The notes below the pieces were generated by a model that saw only the letters and a list, made by a program, of their open reading frames with translations, was not told the origin of the DNA and did no database searches. A stretch of DNA of 64,000 bases from the NCBI RefSeq assembly GCF_036346105.1, contig NZ_CP107811.1, positions 3,910,501-3,974,500 of the forward strand, in the 5' to 3' direction. The translations under genes and the position numbers were made by a program. Shown here piece by piece: positions 43,987-55,215 of this stretch; within the stretch, counting starts at the first letter, position 1; each line of letters starts with the position of its first letter. The stretch comes from Streptomyces sp. NBC_00539. Lineage in GTDB: Bacteria > Actinomycetota > Actinomycetes > Streptomycetales > Streptomycetaceae.

Positions 43987-45300
43987 CTACACCGACGGCT
44001 TGATGATCGGAAAACTGCCGGTCGCCGTCGGCGCGTGCTCGGGCAGCCACAGCACCGCCACCGCCCCGGCGGCCGCGCCCCCGCCCTCCGCGAGGCCCCG
44101 CGCCGCAACGTTGCGGAACGTCAGCCGGGCGCCCAGGACGCGCGCCTGCCCCTCCGCGATGGTCAGCCCCAGCCCGTGCCCGACCCCGGCCCGGTCCGTG
44201 GACCCCGTACGGAAACGGCTCGGCCCCTCGCGCAGCAGCGCCTCCGGGAAGCCCGGCCCGTGGTCCCGTACGCGTACCACCCGGCCCTCGATGTCCACCT
44301 GCACCGGCGGCTGCCCGTACCGCCCGGCGTTGGCCAGCAGGTTGCCCAGGATCCGCTCCAGGCGGCGCGGGTCGGTGCTGACGATCTCGTCCGCGACGAC
44401 CCGTACCGACGCCTGCGGCATCAGCGCCTTCACCCGCCGCGTCACGAACTCGCCCAGCGCCACGTCCTGGAGTTCGGCCCGCTCCGAGGCACTGTCCAGC
44501 CGGGCCACCTCCAGCACGTCCTCGACGAGCGCCCGCATCGCCTGCGCCCGGTCCCGCACGAGCTCGGTCGGCCGGCCCGGGGGCAGCAGTTCCGCCGCGG
44601 TGAGCAGGCCCGTCACCGGGGTGCGCAGCTCGTGGGCGATGTCGGCGGTCACCCGCCGCTCGGCCTCCACCCGCTGCTGGAGGGTGTCCGCCATGGCGTC
44701 CACGGCCCGCGCCAGGTCGTCCGTCTCGTCCCGTACGACGCCGCCCACCGCGTCCCGTACCCGTACGTCGGGATCGCCGTGCGCCACCCGCTGCGCGGCG
44801 GCCGCGGCCTTGCGCAGCCGGCGCGAGATCTGCCCGCCGATGAGCACGCCCAGCGCCGAGCCGGCGAGCACCACGGACAGCGAGCCGACGACCAGTGCCC
44901 GGTCCAGGTCGCGCACCATGTTGGCGCTCTCACGGAACTGCGTGTGCAGCGACACCACCTGCCCGTTGCCGAGCGGTACGGCCGCCCACACCTCCGGGAG
45001 CCCCCGGGGGTTCTCCTGGACGTAGGTCCCGCGCCGCCCGCTGCGCGCCTTCTCGCGCAGCTCGGCGGGCAGGTCGGGGTCGTTGAGCTTGGCGCCCATG
45101 GGGGGCTTGCGCCCGGCCTCGGCGTTGCGGGAGATGAACTGCACGCGGTCCAGCTGCACCTCGCGGGCGCTCTCCAGCATCGACACGCGCGCAGCGCTGT
45201 GCACCACGAGGCTCAGCGCGACGGCGATCAGCGCACCGACCGCGGCGACGGCGAGGGCGATCTTCCAGCGGATCCCGGTGCGCAGGGTGAACCGCTTCAC
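43987..45300 (-). CDS. cseC: Sensor histidine kinase CseC
   Basis: CseC senses cell-envelope damage and phosphorylates CseB, which turns on sigE. The 437-residue kinase has two membrane spans (about 12-34 and 135-157) around an extracytoplasmic sensor loop. A HAMP domain, the H-box VTADIAHELRTPVTGLL and ATPase motifs (RILGNLLANAGRYG, VRVRDHGPGF, GHGLGLTIAE) follow. GTG 45300 starts 13 bases after the cseB stop. The identification rests on the gene order sigE-cseA-cseB-cseC, unique to this system in Streptomyces. Confidence 0.93.
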   Translation of the reverse strand: MKRFTLRTGIRWKIALAVAAVGALIAVALSLVVHSAARVSMLESAREVQLDRVQFISRNAEAGRKPPMGAKLNDPDLPAELREKARSGRRGTYVQENPRGLPEVWAAVPLGNGQVVSLHTQFRESANMVRDLDRALVVGSLSVVLAGSALGVLIGGQISRRLRKAAAAAQRVAHGDPDVRVRDAVGGVVRDETDDLARAVDAMADTLQQRVEAERRVTADIAHELRTPVTGLLTAAELLPPGRPTELVRDRAQAMRALVEDVLEVARLDSASERAELQDVALGEFVTRRVKALMPQASVRVVADEIVSTDPRRLERILGNLLANAGRYGQPPVQVDIEGRVVRVRDHGPGFPEALLREGPSRFRTGSTDRAGVGHGLGLTIAEGQARVLGARLTFRNVAARGLAEGGGAAAGAVAVLWLPEHAPTATGSFPIIKPSV

Positions 45301-45313
45301 AGCACGGACCGTT

Positions 45314-46024
45314 TCATGGCTTGAGCTTGTATCCGAAGCCCCGGACCGTTTCGATCCGGTCCTGTCCGATCTTGGTGCGCAGCCGCTGGACGTGGACGTC
45401 CACGACGCGGGTGTCGCCGCCCCAGTCGTAGTCCCAGACCCGCTCCAGCAGCCGGTCGCGGGAGAGGACGGTGCCGGGCGCGGAGGAGAACTCCAGCAGC
45501 AGCCGCATCTCGGTGGGGGTCAGGGCCACGGGGGCGCCCGCCTTGCGCACCTCCATGCCCTCGGTGTCGACCTCCAGGTCGCCGAAGTTCAGCACCCCGC
45601 GCTCGCCGGAGTCCTCCTCCCCGGCCGCCGGGCCCCCGCCGTGCACGCCGTTCGCGTGTCCGAAGCGGCGCAGCACGGCGCGGATGCGGGCGACGAGGAC
45701 GGAGCCGTCGAACGGCTTGGTGACGTAGTCGTCGGCGCCCGCCTCCAGCCCCAGGACGACGTCGATGGAGTCGGCCCGCGCGGACAGCATGATCACGGGG
45801 ACGGTGGACTCGTCGCGGATGCGGCGGCACAGGCTCACGCCGTCCATGCCGGGCACCATCACGTCGAGGAGCGCGATGTCGGGCCGGTTCGCGCGGAACG
45901 ACTCCAGGCCGGCCAGGCCGTCGGGCATGGCGGTGACCACGAAGCCGTCGCGTTCCAGCGCCAGGGTCGTGGCCTCGCGGATGACGTCGTCGTCCTCCAC
46001 GAACAGCACATGGGTCTCGGCCAT
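45314..46024 (-). CDS. cseB: OmpR-type response regulator CseB
   Basis: The 236-residue regulator has a receiver domain (HVLFVEDDDVIREAT, phosphoacceptor Asp in DIALLDVMVPGMDG, Lys in YVTKPFDG). Its OmpR winged helix is ALTPTEMRLLLEFSSAPGTVLSRDRLLERVW, VDVHVQRLRTKIG, GFGYKL. Phosphorylated by CseC, it activates the sigE promoter. It lies between cseA (13 bases) and cseC (13 bases). GAGGCACC precedes ATG 46024. Confidence 0.94.
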   Translation of the reverse strand: MAETHVLFVEDDDVIREATTLALERDGFVVTAMPDGLAGLESFRANRPDIALLDVMVPGMDGVSLCRRIRDESTVPVIMLSARADSIDVVLGLEAGADDYVTKPFDGSVLVARIRAVLRRFGHANGVHGGGPAAGEEDSGERGVLNFGDLEVDTEGMEVRKAGAPVALTPTEMRLLLEFSSAPGTVLSRDRLLERVWDYDWGGDTRVVDVHVQRLRTKIGQDRIETVRGFGYKLKP

Positions 46025-46037
46025 GCGGTGCCTCGCT

Positions 46038-46736
46038 TCAGTTCTTGGGTGTGACGGCCGGGGCGGGCTGGGAACCGCCGTCGACGTTGCTGTAGTCCGT
46101 GTGGACCCGGTCCTGCTCGGTGAACTTCTCGCCGTTCCACCGGTACGTGATCACGTCCTCGCCGGACGGGTACGAGAGCGCGTCGCTCTTCCCGTACACC
46201 GGCTTGGTGACCACGAGGTCGCCGCGGTCGATCTCCGCGTAGACGGGAGGCTGCTCGTCCGCGAAGACGTTCGCGTACGTCGCGCCCTCGGCGCGGTACA
46301 CGTACGTGCCGCGCCCCAGCGCGTCGGCGCACGACAGCACGTTGACGACGATGTCGACGACCGGGCCCGCGGTGACCTTCCCGTAGCTGACGTCGACGGG
46401 GTACTCCTTGCCCGTGCAGGGCTTGAGGTCCCGTTTGACCTCGGCGCTCACCTTGGGGTCCGCCTTGAGCAGCGCGACCGGGTCGACCTTCCCGGCCGGG
46501 CGGTCCGGGGGCACCGCGGAGGACGCGGCGTTCGGGGACGCGGCCGAGCCGACCGGCGCGCCGGTCCGGGCCACCGTCTCGGTACGGGCCGGGCCGCCGT
46601 CGCGCAGCCCCGTGCCGCCGGTCGAGCAACCGACCGCGAGCAGCCCGGTGCCGACGAGGACGACCGTCCCCGCCGACATCAGCACCAGCGGCTTCCTGCC
46701 GCCGGCGTCCTTGCCATGGCCGTTCAGGCCGCGCAC
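46038..46736 (-). CDS. cseA: Lipoprotein CseA, modulator of SigE induction
   Basis: CseA is the lipoprotein that dampens sigE expression, probably by acting on CseC outside the membrane. The 232-residue protein has a charged N-terminus, a hydrophobic stretch and the lipobox LLAVGC (Cys 37). A Ser/Ala/Pro linker and a globular domain with VVDIVVNVLSCADALGRGTYVYRA and EDVITYRWNGEKFTEQDRV follow. GTG 46736 lies inside the end of sigE (13-base overlap), so translation is probably coupled. A longer frame upstream is sigE read in another phase. Confidence 0.88.
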   Translation of the reverse strand: MRGLNGHGKDAGGRKPLVLMSAGTVVLVGTGLLAVGCSTGGTGLRDGGPARTETVARTGAPVGSAASPNAASSAVPPDRPAGKVDPVALLKADPKVSAEVKRDLKPCTGKEYPVDVSYGKVTAGPVVDIVVNVLSCADALGRGTYVYRAEGATYANVFADEQPPVYAEIDRGDLVVTKPVYGKSDALSYPSGEDVITYRWNGEKFTEQDRVHTDYSNVDGGSQPAPAVTPKN

Positions 46737-47284
46737 CGCTCCCGCCCCTCGTACCGCACCGTGTGGTCGCCGCGCTCCAGCGCGCGCATGTCGAGGTCCC
46801 GGCTCTCCAGCTCCTGCCGGAGGCGGGCCAGTGCGCGGTGCAGGGTGCTCTTCACGGTTCCCGTCGACATGCCGAGCGCCGCCGCCGTCTCCTCGGTGCT
46901 CATCTGCTCCCAGTGTCGCAGTACGACCACACTGCGCTGCTTGGGGGCGAGGACCTTGAGGATGTCCATCAGCAGGGCGCGGTCGGCGCGCTGGTCGGAG
47001 CCGTCCTCGACGGAGGCGTCCGGGAGCTGCTCGGTGGGGACCTCGTCGAGCTTGCGGGCACGCCACCACTCGGTACGCGTGTTGATCATGACGCGGCGCA
47101 GGTAGGCGTCGGCCAGCGCCTTGTCGGCGATGCCGTCCCAGCGGCCGTACGTGCGCACGAGCGCGGTCTGCAGGAGGTCCTGGGCGTCCGTGGGGTCCGG
47201 GACGAGGCGCCGGGCACTGCGCAGCAGCGCGTCCTGCCGGGTGCGTACGTACTCCTCGAATCCGAGTACCTCGCCGTGCGCCAT
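46724..47284 (-). CDS. sigE: ECF sigma factor SigE
   Basis: SigE directs transcription of cell-envelope stress genes in Streptomyces. The 186-residue ECF factor has region 2 (FEEYVRTRQDALLRSARRLVPDPTDAQDLLQTALVRTYGRW, NTRTEWWRARKLDE). Region 4 is LAPKQRSVVVLRHWEQMSTEETAAALGMSTGTVKSTLHRALARLRQEL. No anti-sigma gene is adjacent; control is through CseABC at the sigE promoter. ATG 47284 has GGAGG 9 bases upstream. The 287-base region upstream (47285-47571) holds its promoter and a GTTGT/ACAAC dyad. Confidence 0.95.
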   Translation of the reverse strand: MAHGEVLGFEEYVRTRQDALLRSARRLVPDPTDAQDLLQTALVRTYGRWDGIADKALADAYLRRVMINTRTEWWRARKLDEVPTEQLPDASVEDGSDQRADRALLMDILKVLAPKQRSVVVLRHWEQMSTEETAAALGMSTGTVKSTLHRALARLRQELESRDLDMRALERGDHTVRYEGRERCAA

Positions 47285-47401
47285 CTCAGACCGCCTCCGT
47301 TCCGCCCAACGTGCATCCACCGTGTTACGGGTCCGACGGTACGGAGGCGTTGTCACGGCACTGTGCGGGTAAGCCTTCGGTGGGCGCACGGACACCCGTA
47401 G

Positions 47402-47414
47402 GTTGTGTAACAAC
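47402..47414. promoter_or_regulatory. 13-bp palindrome upstream of sigE
   Basis: GTTGT-GTA-ACAAC is a perfect inverted repeat located 118 bases upstream of the sigE start, in the 287-base gap after mutY. It is a candidate CseB or other regulator site; no consensus for CseB is available to me to test it. Confidence 0.4.
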
Positions 47415-47571
47415 GCCGGTGAGCTGCGGTTTCCCGGGCGTGAGCGGAGCCGCCGACTCCACTTCCGGCGGCTCCTTGCGGGGGCGCGCGCCGCCTTCCG
47501 GGAGTCCGCGGCGCGTCTTGGCGCCGGCTCGGCGGCGGGCCCCGCGCCGGCTCCGCGGCGGCCCGTGGGCG

Positions 47572-48477
47572 TCAGCTGCGCGGCAGTCGGTACATGCCCT
47601 GCGCGAGGGGCTCCACCAGCCCGTCGGAGACCAGCCCGTCCAGCGCCCGCGCCCGCTGCACCGGTTCGTCCCAGACCGTGTCGAGCACGGACTGCGGAAC
47701 CGGGCCCACCGCCTCCCGGAGCACCGCGAGGAGCCGGCCGCGCACCTGCCGGTCGGTCCCGGCGTACGTCTGCGCCCGCCGCGGCGGCCCGTCGTGCGGC
47801 GGCTTCCCGGCGAGCCGCCACGCGCACTGCCCCGCCACCGGACAGCGCTCGCAGTCCGGGGACTTGGCCGTGCACACCAGCGCGCCGAGCTCCATCGAGG
47901 CTGCCGCCCAGCGCGCCGCGGTCGCCTCCTCGGCGGGCAGCAGGGCCCGGGCCAGGCGCCGTTCGGCGGCGGTGGTGGCGTTCGGCGGGAATTCGACCCC
48001 GGTCGTGGTGCGGGCGATGACCCGGCGGACGTTGGTGTCCAGCACCGCGTGCCGCTGGCCGTACGCGAAGGAGGCCACCGCCGCCGCCGTGTACTCGCCG
48101 ATCCCGGGCAGCGCCAGCAGCTGTGTGTGGTCCCGCGGCACGTCGCCCCCGTGCCGTTCCGTTATCGCGACGGCGGCGCCGTGCAGGCGCAGGGCCCGGC
48201 GCGGGTAACCGAGCCGGCCCCAGGCCCGTACGGCCTCGCCGGGGGCCTCGGCGGCCAGGTCGGCGGGCCGGGGCCACCGGGCGAGCCACTGCTCGTACAC
48301 CGGCAGGACCCGGCTGACCGGGGTCTGCTGGAGCATGAACTCGCTGACCATGACCCCCCAGGGGCCGGCCTCGGGGCGGCGCCAGGGCAGGTCGCGGGCG
48401 TGCTCGTCGAACCACGCGATGACGGGGGAGTGCAGCGCGTGGGAGACGTCGGGGGAGGGGAAGGTGGATGCAGTCAT
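47572..48477 (-). CDS. mutY: A/G-specific adenine glycosylase
   Basis: MutY removes adenine mispaired with 8-oxoguanine. The 301-residue protein has PWRRPEAGPWGVMVSEFMLQQTPV and the helix-hairpin-helix LPGIGEYTAAAVASFAYGQ. It has the catalytic Asp in AVLDTNVRRVIAR and an iron-sulfur cluster loop CTAKSPDCERCPVAGQC (Cys spacing 6-2-5). A C-terminal lysine-free domain of ~60 residues replaces the usual NUDIX-like part, as in short actinobacterial MutY. ATG 48477 was chosen at the family start; the open frame runs further upstream through Arg/Pro-rich sequence. It is upstream of sigE on the same strand. Confidence 0.93.
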   Translation of the reverse strand: MTASTFPSPDVSHALHSPVIAWFDEHARDLPWRRPEAGPWGVMVSEFMLQQTPVSRVLPVYEQWLARWPRPADLAAEAPGEAVRAWGRLGYPRRALRLHGAAVAITERHGGDVPRDHTQLLALPGIGEYTAAAVASFAYGQRHAVLDTNVRRVIARTTTGVEFPPNATTAAERRLARALLPAEEATAARWAAASMELGALVCTAKSPDCERCPVAGQCAWRLAGKPPHDGPPRRAQTYAGTDRQVRGRLLAVLREAVGPVPQSVLDTVWDEPVQRARALDGLVSDGLVEPLAQGMYRLPRS

Positions 48478-48746
48478 GGCACACGCATCCTGGCACGTTT
48501 CGTCCCCCTCGCGCCGGGCCCGGCGCGGGGCCCGCGGGTGTGGCGCGGGCGCGAACCGGACCCCACCGCCGTGGTCCGGGCCGCGCACGGTCACGGACGG
48601 TGCCCGCCGCCCGTACGCCGGGGGCACCCCGTATGGCCTGATCTTTTCGGCCGGACGGGGCCAGCGGGATGATCATCGGCAAAACACGCCGGATGCACGG
48701 CATGTGGGGCGCTGATCGCGGCGCCGGTTCTCGTAAAGTTCCGTCC

Positions 48747-49541
48747 GTGGGATCACTGCGCAATCCGGTCGGGCCGCTCCCCTCCTCCATTTACTGGCGA
48801 CGGAGGGCTGTGCTGGCGTCTGTCGCCGCGCTCCTCGCGCTCCTCGCCGTATGGACCGTCAGTTCCGGTGGCGGGAAGCCGAGTACGAACGGCGAGGGCA
48901 AGGGGGGCCCGCGTCCCGTCACCTCGATCACCCCCGGTCCCTCCGGCTCCGGCCCGGCGATCAGTCAGGCGCCGGGCGGCCGAGGCGGTTCCGGCTCCGG
49001 TTCCGGTTCCGGAGCCGGGACGGGTTCCGGTGCGGGCGCCGGCAAGAACGGCGAGACGGGCGGCGGCGGTTCGAGCGACGGGGGCGGCAACGGGAGCTCC
49101 GGCGCCGCGGCCCCGGTCCCCGCCGACGCCGCGCTCCCCGCCTGTGCGCCGGGCGTGGTGCAGTGGGAGGTCAAGAGCGTCAAGAACGAGTACGAGGCGA
49201 ACGAGAAGCCCCGGCTCGAACTGATCGTCCGCAACGTGTCGGGAACCACCTGCAAGATCGGACTCGGCCCGAAGCAGGCCGTCATGACGATCACTCAGGC
49301 CAGTGGCAACAAGCCGGTGTGGTCGGGTGCCGACTGCCCGGCCGGTGCGGGCAACGCCTTCTTCCGGCTGCCCGCGCAGGGCGAGGCGAAGCAGTCGCTG
49401 GAGTGGGACCGCAAGCCCAGCGCGCCCGACCAGTGCCAGACGCCTCCGGCGGGGTCGGCGGCCCCGGACACCTACGTGGTCGAGGTCAAGGCCCCCGGCC
49501 TGCCGGTCGCCCGCACCTCGTTCGTCCTCAAGCAGGACTGA
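48747..49541 (+). CDS. Hypothetical exported/membrane-anchored protein
   Basis: The 264-residue protein has a short cytoplasmic N-terminus (MGSLRNPVGPLPSSIYWRRR) and one hydrophobic span (about 21-39). A long Gly/Ser/Pro-rich linker (about 42-125) and an outer domain of ~130 residues with paired Cys (LPACAPG, TTCKIG, ADCPAG, DQCQTP) follow. The domain looks like a beta-sandwich that could bind an extracellular partner (DUF4232-like proteins have this look), but I do not assign a family. TAAAGT (48734-48739) ends 7 bases before GTG 48747, so the start is nearly leaderless. It is convergent with disA. Confidence 0.78.
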   Translation: MGSLRNPVGPLPSSIYWRRRAVLASVAALLALLAVWTVSSGGGKPSTNGEGKGGPRPVTSITPGPSGSGPAISQAPGGRGGSGSGSGSGAGTGSGAGAGKNGETGGGGSSDGGGNGSSGAAAPVPADAALPACAPGVVQWEVKSVKNEYEANEKPRLELIVRNVSGTTCKIGLGPKQAVMTITQASGNKPVWSGADCPAGAGNAFFRLPAQGEAKQSLEWDRKPSAPDQCQTPPAGSAAPDTYVVEVKAPGLPVARTSFVLKQD

Positions 49542-49559: not shown

Positions 49560-50684
49560 TCACACGTAGCGTTCGAGGATCGAGGACTCGGCCAGGCGGG
49601 ACAGGCCCTCGCGGACGCTGCGCGCGCGGGCCTCGCCCACGCCGTCCACGGTCTGGAGGTCGTCCACGCTCGCGGCCAGCAGCTTCTGCAGGCCCCCGAA
49701 GTGCTCGACCAGCCGCTCGATGATCGCCCCCGGCAGCCGGGGCACCTTGGCCAGGAGCCGGTACCCGCGCGGCGAGACCGCCGAATCCAGCGTCTCAGGC
49801 GAGCCCGTGTACCCGAGGGCCCTCGCGACGATCCCCAGCTCCAGCAGCTCCGGGTGCGTCAGCGCGTCCAGCGCCGGCAGCGCCTCCTCCACCGTGCGGG
49901 AACGCTTCGCCGTCGGCTCCGGAACGTAGTCCCGGATCACCAGCTCCCGTTCCTGCTCGATCCCGACCGTCAGCTCGTCCAGCTGGAGCGACAGGAGGCG
50001 TCCGTCGGTGCCGAGTTCCACCACGTATTCGGCGATTTCCGTGGCAATACGGCGAACCATTTCCAGCCGCTGCGCGACCGCCGTCACGTCGCGCACCGTG
50101 ACCAGGTCCTCGATCTCCAGCGCCGACAGCGTTCCCGCGACCTCGTCCAGGCGCAGCTTGTACCGCTCCAGCGTGGCCAGCGCCTGGTTCGCGCGGGACA
50201 GGATCGCCCCGGACTCCTCCAGGACCCGCCGCTCCCCGTCCACGTAGAGCGCGATCAGCCGCATCGACTGCGACACGGACACGACGGGGAACCCGCACTG
50301 CTTCGAGACCCGGTCCGCCGTGCGGTGCCGGGTGCCGGTCTCCTCCGTCGGGATCGACGCGTCCGGGACCAGCTGCACGCCCGCCCGGAGGATCTTGGTG
50401 AGGTCCTTGTCGAGGATGAGGGCGCCGTCGAGCTTGCACAGCTCGCGCAGCCGGGTCGCGGTGAACTCCACGTCCAGCACGAAACCGCCCGTGCACATCG
50501 CCTCGACGGACTTGTCCATCCCGAGGACGATCAGGCCGCCGGTGTTGCCGCGGACGATCCGTTCGAGACCGTCGCGCAGGGGCTGACCAGGTGCGACCGC
50601 GCTCAGCGAGGCCCGCATCATGGCTTCCTGCCTGGAGCTCGCGCCCGACTTCCCGGATGCTGCTGCACCGTCCTTGGCTGCCAC
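49560..50684 (-). CDS. disA: DNA integrity scanning diadenylate cyclase
   Basis: DisA makes the second messenger c-di-AMP and slides along DNA to sense lesions. The 374-residue protein has the DAC domain motifs [11 protein letters not shown] and [13 protein letters not shown], a helical spine and a RuvA-like helix-hairpin-helix C-terminus ([24 protein letters not shown]). GTG 50684 has GGAGGAG upstream. In Streptomyces DisA is the c-di-AMP synthase that affects osmotic balance and development. It follows radA (217 bases), the conserved pair. Confidence 0.96.
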
Positions 50685-50900
50685 TGCACTCCTCCGGTCG
50701 CGGGTTGCGCCGCCTGCGTACGGCCGGGCGGACCAGCACAAAGTCTACCGGCGCGCTCTGCGCCTTGGCCGTGCCTTGTCCCGTATCGGTCCCGCACCCC
50801 CACCGCGGGACGAGTTCCGGCCGCCCGGCCACCGCCCGGCCACCGCCCTCCGGCCGGCCTTCGGCCCGGCCGGCGGTGACGGCCGGCGGTGACGGCCGGG

Positions 50901-52313
50901 CTACTCGCCCGCCCGCTCCCGGGCAGGCGTGCGGGCCCGGCCGCGCGGCAAGACCCGTAGCGCGTCGCCCATGTCCGCCACCTCGATCACCTTCATGCCC
51001 GCCGGCACCTTCCCCGGATCTGCCGGGACCAGCGCGTGCGTGAACCCGAGCCGGTGGGCTTCCGCGAGCCGTCGCTGGACGCCGGTCACCCGCCGCACCT
51101 CGCCCGCCAGCCCGACCTCCCCGATCGCCACGAGGTTCTTCGGCAGCGGGACGTCGCTCGCCGCCGAGGCCAGCGCCAGCGCGATCGCCAGGTCCGCGGC
51201 CGGCTCCGTGAGCTTCACCCCGCCCACCGTGGCGCTGTAGATGTCCCGCTTGCCCAGGGCCGTGATCCGGCCGCGTTGCTCCAGCACCGCCAGCATCATC
51301 GAGACGCGCGAGGTCTCCAGCCCCGAGGTGGTCCGGCGCGGCGAGGGGATCTGCGAGTCCACCGTCAGCGCCTGCACCTCGGCGACCAGCGGCCGCTTGC
51401 CCTCCAGCGTCACCGTCAGGCAGGTGCCCGGCACGGCCTCCGCGCGGCGCGTGAGGAACAGCCCGCTCGGGTCGGCGAGACCGATGATGCCCTCGTCGTG
51501 CAGCTCGAAGCAGCCGACCTCGTCGGTGGCCCCGTAACGGTTCTTCACACCGCGCACCAGCCGCAGCCGCGCGTGCCGGTCGCCCTCGAAGCTGAGCACC
51601 ACGTCCACGAGGTGTTCCAGCAGCCGGGGGCCGGCGATCGCGCCGTCCTTGGTGACGTGGCCGACGAGCAGGGTCGACATCCCGCGCTCCTTGGAGGCCC
51701 GGATCAGTGCCCCGGCCACCTCGCGCACCTGTGCCATGCCGCCGGGCGCGCCGTCGATCTCGGGGGAGGCGATGGTCTGTACGGAGTCCAGGATCAGCAG
51801 CGAGGGCTTGACCGCGTCCAGGTGTCCGAGGACGGCGGAGAGGTCCGTCTCCGCCGCGAGGTAGAGGTGGTCGTTCAGCGCGTTGATCCGGTCGGCCCGC
51901 AGCCGGACCTGGCTCGCGGACTCCTCGCCCGTCACGTACAGGGTGCGGTGGTCGTCGGTGGCCGCCTTCGCGGCGACGTCCAGCAGCAGCGTCGACTTGC
52001 CGACGCCCGGCTCGCCCGCCAGCAGCACGACGGCCCCCGGCACGAGGCCGCCGCCGAGGACCCGGTCCAGCTCGTCCACGCCGGTGCTGCGGGCCGTCGC
52101 CGTACGGCCGTCGACCTGGGCGATCGGGACGGCGGGGGCCGAGACCCGGCCGGCCGCGGTGGTCCGCACGGCGGGCGCACCCATCTCCTCGACGGTCCCC
52201 CACGCCTGGCACTCGGGGCACCGGCCGAGCCATTTCGCGGTCGTCCAGCCGCACTCGGAGCAGCGGTAGGACGGCCGGTCCTTGGCGGATGAACGAGATG
52301 TACGGGCAGCCAT
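50901..52313 (-). CDS. radA: DNA repair protein RadA
   Basis: RadA is a RecA-like helicase that helps branch migration in recombination. The 470-residue protein has an N-terminal zinc finger (CSECGWTTAKWLGRCPEC) and Walker A GEPGVGKS. It also has the RadA-specific KNRYGATDEVG motif and a C-terminal Lon-like domain (GVKLTEPAADLAIALALASA). TACGGT (complement of 52321-52326) ends 7 bases before ATG 52313, predicting a near-leaderless mRNA. RadA and DisA interact functionally in Bacillus, where RadA lowers DisA activity; this neighbourhood fits that link. Confidence 0.96.
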   Translation of the reverse strand: MAARTSRSSAKDRPSYRCSECGWTTAKWLGRCPECQAWGTVEEMGAPAVRTTAAGRVSAPAVPIAQVDGRTATARSTGVDELDRVLGGGLVPGAVVLLAGEPGVGKSTLLLDVAAKAATDDHRTLYVTGEESASQVRLRADRINALNDHLYLAAETDLSAVLGHLDAVKPSLLILDSVQTIASPEIDGAPGGMAQVREVAGALIRASKERGMSTLLVGHVTKDGAIAGPRLLEHLVDVVLSFEGDRHARLRLVRGVKNRYGATDEVGCFELHDEGIIGLADPSGLFLTRRAEAVPGTCLTVTLEGKRPLVAEVQALTVDSQIPSPRRTTSGLETSRVSMMLAVLEQRGRITALGKRDIYSATVGGVKLTEPAADLAIALALASAASDVPLPKNLVAIGEVGLAGEVRRVTGVQRRLAEAHRLGFTHALVPADPGKVPAGMKVIEVADMGDALRVLPRGRARTPARERAGE

Positions 52314-52508
52314 GCGCACCACCGTAGCCGCCGGCACCGACACCGCCGCCGGGACGGCTTGCGGCACCCCTTCCGGCACTGCCCCCGGTACCGCCCCCAC
52401 TACCGCCCCCGGCTGCCGCGTCAGGGGCGCTGTCAGCACGGGCTCGATCTGTTCACCCGTAAGGGCTAAAACCGCTGAAGGCTTCCGGACCGTCACGGGC
52501 GCGCCGCC

Positions 52509-52514
52509 TACGGT
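52509..52514 (+). promoter_or_regulatory. -10 box TACGGT of a leaderless gene
   Basis: TACGGT ends exactly 6 bases before GTG 52521, placing the transcription start on the start codon. No ribosome binding site is present upstream. Confidence 0.55.
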
Positions 52515-52520
52515 CGCCGA

Positions 52521-54269
52521 GTGAACAGCAGCAGCCAACCACACCCCCCGGCGCGCACCGGCGCACACCGGGCGCAGGGGCGCACGCCCTCCCGCGGACC
52601 CGAGCTGGGCCCCGCGGACGAGCAGCCTCCCCCCTTCCGGCACGAGCCCTACCTCGACGGACTGTTCACTTACTGCCTGTCGGTGCTGTGTGACCACGAC
52701 ACCGCCACCGACGTGCTCGGTGAGGTCCTCGCCGTCGCCGAACGGCATCCCGGCCGGTGCCCCGACGAAGGGGACCGGCGGGCCTGGCTCTACGCACTGG
52801 CCCGCTGGGGCTGCCTCACCCGGCTGGGCGAACAACGGCGCACCCGCCAGGGGGCGCATTCCGCCGGGCGCACGCCGGAGCACACCGACGAAAAGCATGC
52901 GCCGGGGGCGCTGGACGTGAGCGCCTACCGCCGTACCGAGCTGGCCCGCCTCGCCTGGCCCGAAGCCGCCGGAACCACCCCCGAGCAGCGCGAGGCCCTC
53001 GAACTCGCCGTCCGCCACCGCCTCGCCGTACCGGAACTCGCCGCCGTCCTCGGCACCCAGGCAGCCACCGCCCGGGAACTGCTCACCGGCGCCGCATGCG
53101 AGGTGGAACGCACCCGCGCCGCCCTCGCCGTGGTCGAGACCGGCAACTGTCCGGCCGTGTCCCGGCTCACCGGCGACGGCCAGGTGCTGCTGTCCACCAC
53201 CCTGCGCGCCGAGCTGGTGCGCCACGTCGACGACTGCCCCCGCTGCCGCCGGGTCGCCGAACGGGTGGGCGCCGCGGCGCCCTGGCCCGGCTCCGGCGGC
53301 GTCCACACCCCCGGGCTCCCCCTGGTCCCCGCCCCGCGCCCCGCCGTCCACGCCGCGATGCTGCGCTCCGGCCGGCGCCGCCGGGGCGGGCCCGGCCCCC
53401 GCTTCGACCGCACCGGCTTCCCCATGGACCCCAAGGACCGCGCGGCGCGCCGCGACCGGCTCCGGGCGCGGGCGGTCACCACCACCGTCGTCGCCACCGT
53501 GGTCGCCGCTCCCGTCCTCGCGCTGTGGGCCGCGTACCGGGGCGCCCCCAGTACCGGCGAACCCGCCGCGGGCACCACCGCCCGTATCTCGGCCAGCGAA
53601 TCGGAGCTTCCGCTCCCACACGTCGACGGGCGCCCCTTCGCCGCCTATCAGAACGCCGGCAACACGCGCACCACCGGCGAGCCGGGCTTCGCGCCGGGCG
53701 CGGACGTCCCGGACGTCTCGGTCGAGGTGATCAGCCCCGGTGCCTCCGGCACGCCGCAACCGGGTGGTCCCGGGGCCCCGGGCCACATCGCCGTGAGCGC
53801 CTCCACCCGGGGCGGCACCACCGCGCTCACCCTCACCGCCTCCGGCGGCGCGCCGGTGCACTGGCGGCTGTGGTCGGACGCGCCGTGGCTGCGGGCGAGC
53901 CGGAGCGCGGGCACCCTGGCGCCGGGAGGATCGGTCACCGTGTGGATCACCGTCGACTCCGCGGCCCAGCCGGTCGGGGCCTGGTCGGCCAGGGTCGGGA
54001 TCGACCCCGACGGCGCGGTGGTCTCCCTCCGGGGCCACGGCCGCCCCGCGCCGCCCGCGACGCCACCCGGGACCCCGGACCGGGACCCGGACCCGGACCC
54101 GACGCCGACTCCGACGCCGCCCAGCCCCACGCCGACGCCGCCGGCGACCCCGGATCCCACGCCGACTCCGACGCCGCCGAGCCCCACGCCTACGCCGACG
54201 GAGCCCGAAGGAACGGTTTCCCCCGCGCCGGACCCGGGCGGCCCGGGCCCCTCCGGTTCGGCGTCCTAG
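52521..54269 (+). CDS. Transmembrane fusion of sigma-like and anti-sigma-like segments with an extracellular BACON/Ig-like domain
   Basis: The 582-residue protein combines unusual parts. Residues ~45-110 resemble ECF sigma region 2 ([42 protein letters not shown]). Residues ~150-203 resemble region 4 ([38 protein letters not shown]). HVDDCPRC (His 235, Cys 239, Cys 242) is the HxxxCxxC zinc motif of anti-sigma factors. A membrane span (about 318-338) follows, then a linker, a BACON/Ig-like domain (about 421-506, [25 protein letters not shown]) and a Pro/Thr-repeat tail (about 509-563). GTG 52521 is predicted leaderless. A cytoplasmic signalling part coupled to an external sensor is inferred. 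Whether the sigma-like part can bind RNA polymerase is unknown. Confidence 0.8.
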
Positions 54270-54330: not shown

Positions 54331-55128
54331 TCAGGCCTGGCCGGCCGCCGCCGGCGGGTCCGCCGGGTGCGGGGCCATCGGCAGCAGCGAAGACAGCCGC
54401 GCCTCGCACAGCTTCACCAGCTCCGCGTACGCCGCCTCGCCCATCAGCTCCGTCAGCTCGGGCCGGTAGGACACGTACACCGGCTGCCCGGCGCCGTGCG
54501 CGGAGGTGGCCGAGGTGCACCACCAGTGCAGGTCGTGGCCGCCCGGCCCCCAGCCGCGCCGGTCGTACTCCCCGATCGACACCTGGAGCACCCGCGTGTC
54601 GTCGGGCCGGTCGATCCAGTCGTACGTACGCCGGATCGGCAGCTGCCAGCACACGTCGGGCTTGGTCTCCAGCGGCTCCTGGCCGTTCTGCAACGCCAGG
54701 ATGTGCAGCGAACAGCCCGCGCCGGCCGGGAAACCGGGCCGGTTCAGGAAGATGCAGGCGCCGTCCCAGCGGCGGGTCTGCTTCTCCCCGTCGTCGTCCG
54801 TCTGCGTCCAGCCGGACTCGCTGCCGACGTCGTGGAACTGCCACAGCTCGGGCGTCAGGCGGGCCACGTGCCCGGCGACCCGCTTCTCGTCGTCCTCGTC
54901 GGAGAAGTGCGCGCCGAGCGTGCAGCAGCCGTCGGCCGCCCGGCCGGCCTGGATGCCCTGGCAGCCGCTGCCGAAGATGCACGTCCATCGGGAGGTCAGC
55001 CAGGTCAGGTCACAGCGGAAGACCTGCTCGTCGTCGGCGGGGTCGGGGAACTCCACCCAGGCCCGGGGGAAGTCGATGCCCTTCTCGTCGGCCACGACCT
55101 TCGGTTTCTTCTTGGGGGTCTTGGACAT
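54331..55128 (-). CDS. Conserved hypothetical Cys-rich protein
   Basis: The 265-residue soluble protein has several Cys motifs: [56 protein letters not shown] and [11 protein letters not shown]. Eight to ten Cys in conserved spacing suggest a metal or Fe-S site, in the manner of YkgJ/zinc-cluster proteins. Charged N-terminus [18 protein letters not shown] recall close relatives across Streptomyces but no function. ATG 55128 has AGAAGG 6 bases upstream. GTG 55152 is an earlier alternative. Divergent from the ppx-like gene. Confidence 0.75.
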
Positions 55129-55215
55129 GTTGGCCTTCTTCGTATTTGGCACAAACCCAAGCCTAAGCGCCCCTTACCTCACCCATACGCGACGAGCCCA
55201 GTAGCGTTTCCGGTT

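Follow-up and report, generated by a model that had tools for sequence, protein, structure and literature searches.

A membrane-anchored sigma/anti-sigma fusion protein of Streptomyces with a degenerate sigma half

Domain organization of the fusion protein

The window described here is a stretch of 64,000 nucleotides from the genome of Streptomyces sp. NBC_00539 (contig NZ_CP107811.1, positions 3,910,501 to 3,974,500 of the forward strand), and all coordinates below refer to it. At 52521-54269 on the forward strand, it carries an open reading frame (ORF) that reads as an ordinary high-GC Streptomyces gene with a GTG start codon. The encoded protein of 582 amino acids combines in one chain a sigma2-like domain, a sigma4-like domain, a zinc-type anti-sigma (ZAS) domain, one membrane span, a BACON-type immunoglobulin (Ig)-like domain, and a Pro/Thr-rich tail, in this order. 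In this fusion protein the sigma fold is kept and the residues used for contact with RNA polymerase (RNAP) and promoter are lost, while the anti-sigma half is intact.

All parts of the gene lie on the forward strand. After a poorly ordered N-terminal tail, the sigma region-2-like domain (residues 38-114; 52632-52862) and the sigma region-4-like domain (residues 137-206; 52929-53138) were both located by profile matches and by the structure model, and are joined by a variable linker. The ZAS bundle follows at residues 207-250 (53139-53270), with C210, H235, C239, and C242 as putative ligands, and then a helix at residues 273-285 (53337-53375). Just ahead of the membrane, an FDRxGFP motif (residues 295-301; 53403-53423) was recognized by its conservation, followed by a basic stretch and the single span (residues 318-340; 53472-53540), the most constrained segment of the protein. 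On the extracellular side are a stalk (residues 341-418; 53541-53774), mostly of low predicted local distance difference test (pLDDT) score and of 46% mean identity, the BACON-type domain (residues 419-507; 53775-54041), for which both the BACON profile and an Ig-like fold were found, and the Pro/Thr-rich C-terminal tail (residues 508-582; 54042-54266). A preliminary description of this stretch, made from the sequence alone, had proposed one span, a BACON/Ig-like domain, and a Pro/Thr tail, and all three were borne out.

Relatives were collected by a contig scan, from which 80, all titled Streptomyces, were kept among at least 307 found. The ortholog alignment of 60 rows consists of the window, 27 of these 80 loci, 16 of 19 further loci (L115-L133), and 16 of 20 others (L134-L153). 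Left out were L060 and L072, which ran off the contig, L120, L121, L132, and the remaining Streptomyces as similar, and L141, L142, L152, and L153, whose rows were split, partial, or highly divergent. By Pfam search of the window protein, BACON_2 scored above the cut-off, Sigma70_r2 and zf-HC2 stayed below it, and the extracytoplasmic function (ECF) family models gave weak matches. Among the 60 orthologs, BACON_2 was detected in 59 and Sigma70_r4_2 in 42. Within the FDRxGFP motif, G299 and P301 are invariant and F295 and F300 are kept in at least 90% of the 60 rows; the motif is modelled with high confidence, and is kept as GFP in the outgroups L159, L160, and L163.

The sigma half: fold and contact residues

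The residue pattern of sigma regions 2 and 4 noted in the preliminary description corresponds to two real folds, as judged from both profile comparison and the structure model. The family profile alone matched 5uxx weakly (0.0052), and the match reached 3.2e-12 once six outgroup rows were added to give an extended profile (56 of the 60 ortholog rows plus these six). Chance resemblance of the sigma part was ruled out by this extended-profile match and the agreeing fold. In the structure model, with a predicted template modelling (pTM) score of 0.81, the sigma-like and ZAS parts take a closed shape, as in SigW-RsiW, RpoE-NepR, and PhyR. The closed model is consistent with binding and blocking of a sigma factor by the ZAS domain.

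The positions scored in regions 2.2, 2.4, and 4.2 are those of contact with core RNAP and promoter. They were compared in the set of a 70-row tree, composed of 30 of the 60 orthologs (the family rows), seven paralog rows, 20 outgroup fusions belonging to families of the class other than Streptomycetaceae, three further fusions from the own genome, and ten own-genome ECF sigma factors, the last hand-chosen out of 30 fetched from 48 sigma2 matches. The region-2.2 Gln is present in 9/10 of the ECFs and 6/20 of the outgroup fusions, the region-2.4 Asn in 6/10 and 7/20, and the second Arg of region 4.2 in 5/10 and 15/20, and each of them in 0/30 of the family rows. In the full ortholog alignment, each of the three was likewise found in 0/60, and the DxxQ(D/E) core-binding motif of region 2.2 is absent from the family. 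Net charge of the recognition helix ranges between -3 and 0 in all 30 family rows versus +3 to +5 in all ten ECFs; the mean for the recognition block falls from +3.7 in the ECFs to +1.6 in the outgroup fusions and -1.3 in the family. Two positions are retained in part: the first Arg of region 4.2 (7/10 ECFs, 12/20 outgroup fusions, 5/30 family rows) and the acidic residue ending the 2.2 motif (9/10, 20/20, and 18/30, respectively). For the paralog rows, the tally was 0/7 for Gln, 0/7 for Asn, and 3/7 for the second Arg; this includes L152, which is labelled a paralog and counted as such, yet falls inside the family clade. As judged from these sequences, the erosion of sigma motifs is graded from ECFs through outgroup fusions to the family.

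The anti-sigma half and selection

The HxxxCxxC motif of ZAS proteins, pointed out in the preliminary description, proved not to be lost in relatives. C210, H235, C239, and C242 are invariant in 60/60 orthologs and 81/81 Streptomyces copies, and the equivalent residues are kept in 60/60 fused rows of the tree, outgroups included. One more Cys, C98, is also invariant. The spacing C-x24-H-x3-C-x2-C contains the Hx3Cx2C motif and resembles that of RsrA. These four residues would be suited to hold a zinc ion.

In class I anti-sigma factors, helix 1 lies on sigma4, helix 4 on sigma2, and Hx3Cx2C spans helices 2 and 3, according to PMC7406223. The helices 226-238, 240-250, and 273-285 of the model fit this plan, and the last of these, with a mean pLDDT of 94 over residues 271-280, is a candidate for the "helix 4" that would dock on sigma2. 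About half of the membrane-bound class I anti-sigma factors keep the zinc motif, for which the same source suggests a structural role (PMC7406223).

The ratio of nonsynonymous to synonymous substitution rates (dN/dS), computed on ten near pairs, was 0.11 for the sigma2-like domain, 0.12 for the sigma4-like domain, 0.12 for ZAS, 0.22 for the juxtamembrane part, and 0.03 for the span. Outside the membrane it was 0.38 for the stalk, 0.50 for BACON, and 0.36 for the tail. Since dN/dS is low in the cytoplasmic domains, the sigma-like part is selected and not decaying; the values of 0.03-0.12 in these domains and the span, with 0.22 in the juxtamembrane part, rule out a decaying pseudogene. By this sequence measure, the conserved job sits in the cytoplasmic core and the span, and the outside part changes fast. 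The span at 53472-53540, with 95% mean identity, is more conserved than usual for a plain anchor, and may serve as a dimer contact or as a protease substrate.

Distribution and neighbourhood

Sampling of 41 Streptomycetaceae genomes, with the own genome among them, gave relatives of the fusion gene in 40, covering all 17 genera; the one exception was genome G036, with no match. Across the class, the family profile matched in 33 of 79 genomes, five of them Streptomyces; of the matches outside Streptomyces, six genomes scored above 100 bits and the others below 45 bits. A search of plasmids gave no close relative and two weak matches of 30% and 28% identity.

In the 70-row tree, a quick one, the 30 family rows and L152 form one Streptomycetaceae clade with support of 100; it is nested in a larger clade of fused proteins (57 rows, support of 99). 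At least three further sigma-ZAS fusions are present in the own genome, among them L105, L107, and the ECF52 homolog L112. L105 and L107 (on contig G000:C1, at about 316 kb and 884 kb), which form a separate pair in the tree, carry the canonical region-2.2 motif together with HxxxCxxC. In some Streptomycetaceae genera a second, more divergent copy of the same layout lies in tandem with the ortholog (L144, L146, L148, L149, L151, and L153); its divergence extends to the sigma part. Pfam was run on ten outgroup fusions chosen from 26 outgroup loci: eight scored above the Sigma70_r2 cut-off, and two carried BACON_2. The simplest history for these sequences would be that a working fused sigma lost its contacts on the line to Streptomycetaceae, the direction of change being the part that we infer.

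Upstream and divergent lies radA at 50901-52313 on the reverse strand (NCBIfam sms, 6.6e-153 on 50901-52310; start codon read from CAT at 52311-52313), and behind it disA, encoding diadenylate cyclase, at 49560-50741, also on the reverse strand (NCBIfam PRK13482, 1.1e-156). This divergent order with radA was observed for 78 of 80 Streptomyces loci and 39 of 39 further loci. Among ten outgroup stretches examined, radA is present in two (L214 and L221) and absent from eight. In G047, a genome of another family, the neighbours of a related fusion gene likewise include radA, disA, and a relative of the gene that follows the fusion gene in the window. Common descent at the radA locus is therefore suggested for some outgroups only.

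The downstream gene at 54331-55152 on the reverse strand was found in 78/78 Streptomyces loci with enough sequence; it gave no match in Pfam (E<=0.01) or NCBIfam (E<=1e-10). The cell-envelope stress system of cseC, cseB, and a SigE-family sigma gene is located at 43987-48790, about 4-9 kb from the fusion gene.

In S. coelicolor, this locus is presumably covered by the numbers SCO3347-SCO3350. A literature search found nothing on SCO3349 or SCO3350, and SCO3347 and SCO3348 were treated in other contexts. As to control by Sigma-E, a search of the main text of PMC6767563 for the genes of this locus found only sco3342-3341 and an unrelated substring.

The upstream region

The regulatory region was analysed in 77 intergenic regions, comprising the window and 76 of the 80 Streptomyces loci; two loci without a radA match and two with gaps of more than 400 nt were left out. 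A palindromic site TTCACCCGTAAGGGCTAA at 52452-52469 on the forward strand, 69 nt ahead of the start codon, resembles the BldM Group I consensus TCACcCgnncGgGTGA given in PMC4125116. In 77/77 regions, the top-scoring BldM-like match is found at a distance of 68-70 nt ahead of the start codon, with an exact left half TTCACCCG in 69/77. A score of at least 13 of 16 was reached in 66/77 regions versus 4/1540 mononucleotide shuffles, the 77 regions being related sequences. The right half is imperfect, which weakens the reading as a BldM site. With three mismatches, the pattern occurs twice in the window, and 5/100 shuffles equal this; in relaxed form it gave 101 genome matches versus six in the control. 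Among 39 more distant loci, top scores of 10-14 were obtained; the distance of the site from the called start varied, and some sites fell within the ORF. Taken together, the site hints at binding of BldM at 52452-52469 and is best treated as a lead. BldM control, if real, would place the gene in the programme of aerial growth and sporulation.

A -10-like TAnnnT hexamer, TACGGT, is located at 52509-52514 on the forward strand, 6 nt before GTG, and such a hexamer stands near the start in 53/77 regions. This position suggests a leaderless transcript, with the BldM-like site centred near -60. A conserved promoter of ECF type was not found upstream: AAC-N15-18-CGTC was detected in 8/77 regions versus a shuffle mean of 3.3.

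Expression data come from S. venezuelae, three ECF deletion mutants of which show raised levels of RS15920, labelled "r4, BACON" (PMC11256431, Table 3). By the same source, 1433 to 2366 genes are up in these three mutants, RS15920 among them (PMC11256431). From its domain label and its locus-tag distance to RS15950, we infer that RS15920 is the ortholog of the fusion gene.

Discussion

The preliminary description had left two readings side by side, a tethered, sensor-controlled sigma-like module and a degenerate sigma fold serving as a protein-binding platform. The latter is favoured, though not proven, by the loss of residues for core binding and DNA contact throughout the Streptomycetaceae sampled. 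We thus consider, with a probability of roughly 0.55, that a sigma/anti-sigma switch has here been repurposed as a membrane-tethered protein-binding module.

The mechanism that we propose for such a module is as follows. The gene would descend from membrane-tethered ECF sigma/anti-sigma fusions of the ECF48, ECF52, and ECF53 kind. The Streptomycetaceae sigma half would be a pseudo-sigma, in which the sigma2-sigma4 fold is kept and the residues for gripping RNAP and promoter are gone; even when freed or opened, it is unlikely to read promoters. Beneath the membrane, pseudo-sigma and on-board anti-sigma domain would most likely be closed on each other as an intramolecular pair. A cue from outside, probably a cell-wall or polysaccharide ligand of BACON, or else envelope tension, might open the pair or trigger its release. 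The surface thus exposed could bind a protein partner and thereby change gene expression indirectly. This partner might be another anti-sigma factor, with the protein acting as a PhyR-like decoy, or a free sigma factor that the ZAS domain captures. If true, a one-piece membrane sigma has lost promoter reading, has stayed under strong selection, and has become a protein-binding signal relay.

Two observations weigh against the proposed binding module. The ECF52 homolog of the own genome also lacks the region-2.2 Gln (1/1), and ECF52 itself, SCO4117, is active in vivo according to PMC5826349. The own-genome ECF L098 has Ser at this position. L098 and SigE of the window, which has the Gln, stand outside the tree set.

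The main alternative is that the protein is a divergent working ECF sigma, which its own anti-sigma domain would keep at the membrane until a signal sensed by the outside domain frees it through regulated intramembrane proteolysis. The layout is that of SCO4117, and a truncated sigma part of SCO4117 activates the SCO4117 gene itself (PMC5826349); a review expects proteolytic release or activation of the sigma domain for ECF48, ECF52, and ECF53 (PMC8999054). Most of the outgroup fusions scanned (8/10) pass the Sigma70_r2 cut-off, some retaining sigma motifs; S. venezuelae RS15920, up in the three ECF mutants, is counted as a sigma-factor gene (PMC11256431); and one loose ECF-promoter-like AAC-N-CGT match is present in the window at 52470. 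Against these stand the core- and promoter-contact residues, found in 0/60, and a recognition block at or below net zero in 30 rows. Furthermore, a conserved ECF promoter is expected ahead of an autoregulated ECF gene, and the 8/77 regions versus 3.3 for shuffles do not provide one. We consider a working sigma doubtful. That the product is mainly an envelope protein, in which BACON and the Pro/Thr tail act at the cell wall while the cytoplasmic part only anchors them, agrees with BACON_2 in 59/60 orthologs, but appears highly improbable from a dN/dS of 0.36-0.50 outside versus 0.03-0.12 in the cytoplasmic core and span, opposite to its prediction.

Returning to the protein-binding module, its widest form is put forward tentatively: a core-genome, membrane-anchored sigma mimic beside radA-disA, under developmental control of BldM type, which is opened by a cue from outside and controls other sigma or anti-sigma factors by partner switching. 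It would have arisen independently, from a fused sigma that still worked, as a membrane-bound actinobacterial counterpart of PhyR. Since the gene is near-universal in the Streptomycetaceae sampled, adjoins radA-disA, and has a BldM-like site ahead, it becomes a testable candidate for connecting the cell envelope with development or with antibiotic production.

Comparison with known systems

The statement in the preliminary description that sigma and anti-sigma are normally separate proteins needs qualification. Fused proteins of ECF48, ECF52, and ECF53 are already published (PMC8999054, PMC5826349), and therefore the one-polypeptide layout is not itself new. In the open literature, the search for BACON together with sigma factor and Streptomyces gave glycan processing only, and a description of the BACON family as pseudo-sigma was not found, RS15920 being counted there as a sigma-factor gene.

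ECF52 SCO4117 carries an ECF sigma, a zinc finger, a membrane region, a Pro-rich region, and a carbohydrate-binding module in one chain (PMC5826349). The window protein shares the sigma, zinc finger, span, and Pro-rich region, the Pfam zinc-finger model staying below cut-off here, and differs in carrying BACON_2 in place of the NPCBM-type module. The two NPCBM matches of the own genome fall in other genes, and its ECF52 homolog (L112, 607 aa), which keeps both acidic residues of region 2.2 and both Arg of region 4.2, is a separate gene. In the tree, the ECF52 row stands outside the 57-row fused clade and groups with the ordinary ECFs; its branch is long, and deep support is weak. Orthology to ECF52 is thus not supported, as the genome has its own NPCBM-type ECF52 and the tree, within the limits of that branch and support, separates the two.

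ECF48 and ECF53 combine a sigma with a zinc finger and with one or two membrane spans (PMC8999054). Twenty outgroup proteins (L184-L203) share this layout by motif and hydropathy, and these fusions keep more sigma motifs than the Streptomycetaceae family. RsiW, ChrR, and RsrA of class I resemble the anti-sigma half in the Hx3Cx2C helical bundle with a later helix and in the invariant putative ligands; unlike them, the anti-sigma domain of the window protein trails its own sigma-like domain in one chain.

In PhyR, the ECF fold is correct but the regions for RNAP and promoter are degenerate, and the domain titrates an anti-sigma factor (PMC8103513). The sigma-mimic model is favoured because PhyR shows how a degenerate sigma-like domain, such as that of the window protein, can be used. 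The window protein differs from PhyR, which is alphaproteobacterial and thus of a different phylum, in its fusion to ZAS, span, and BACON; a receiver domain, as in PhyR, was not among the families matched in the window protein or the 60 orthologs. Altogether, the fused layout is known, and the unusual feature is a degraded sigma half joined to an intact anti-sigma half.
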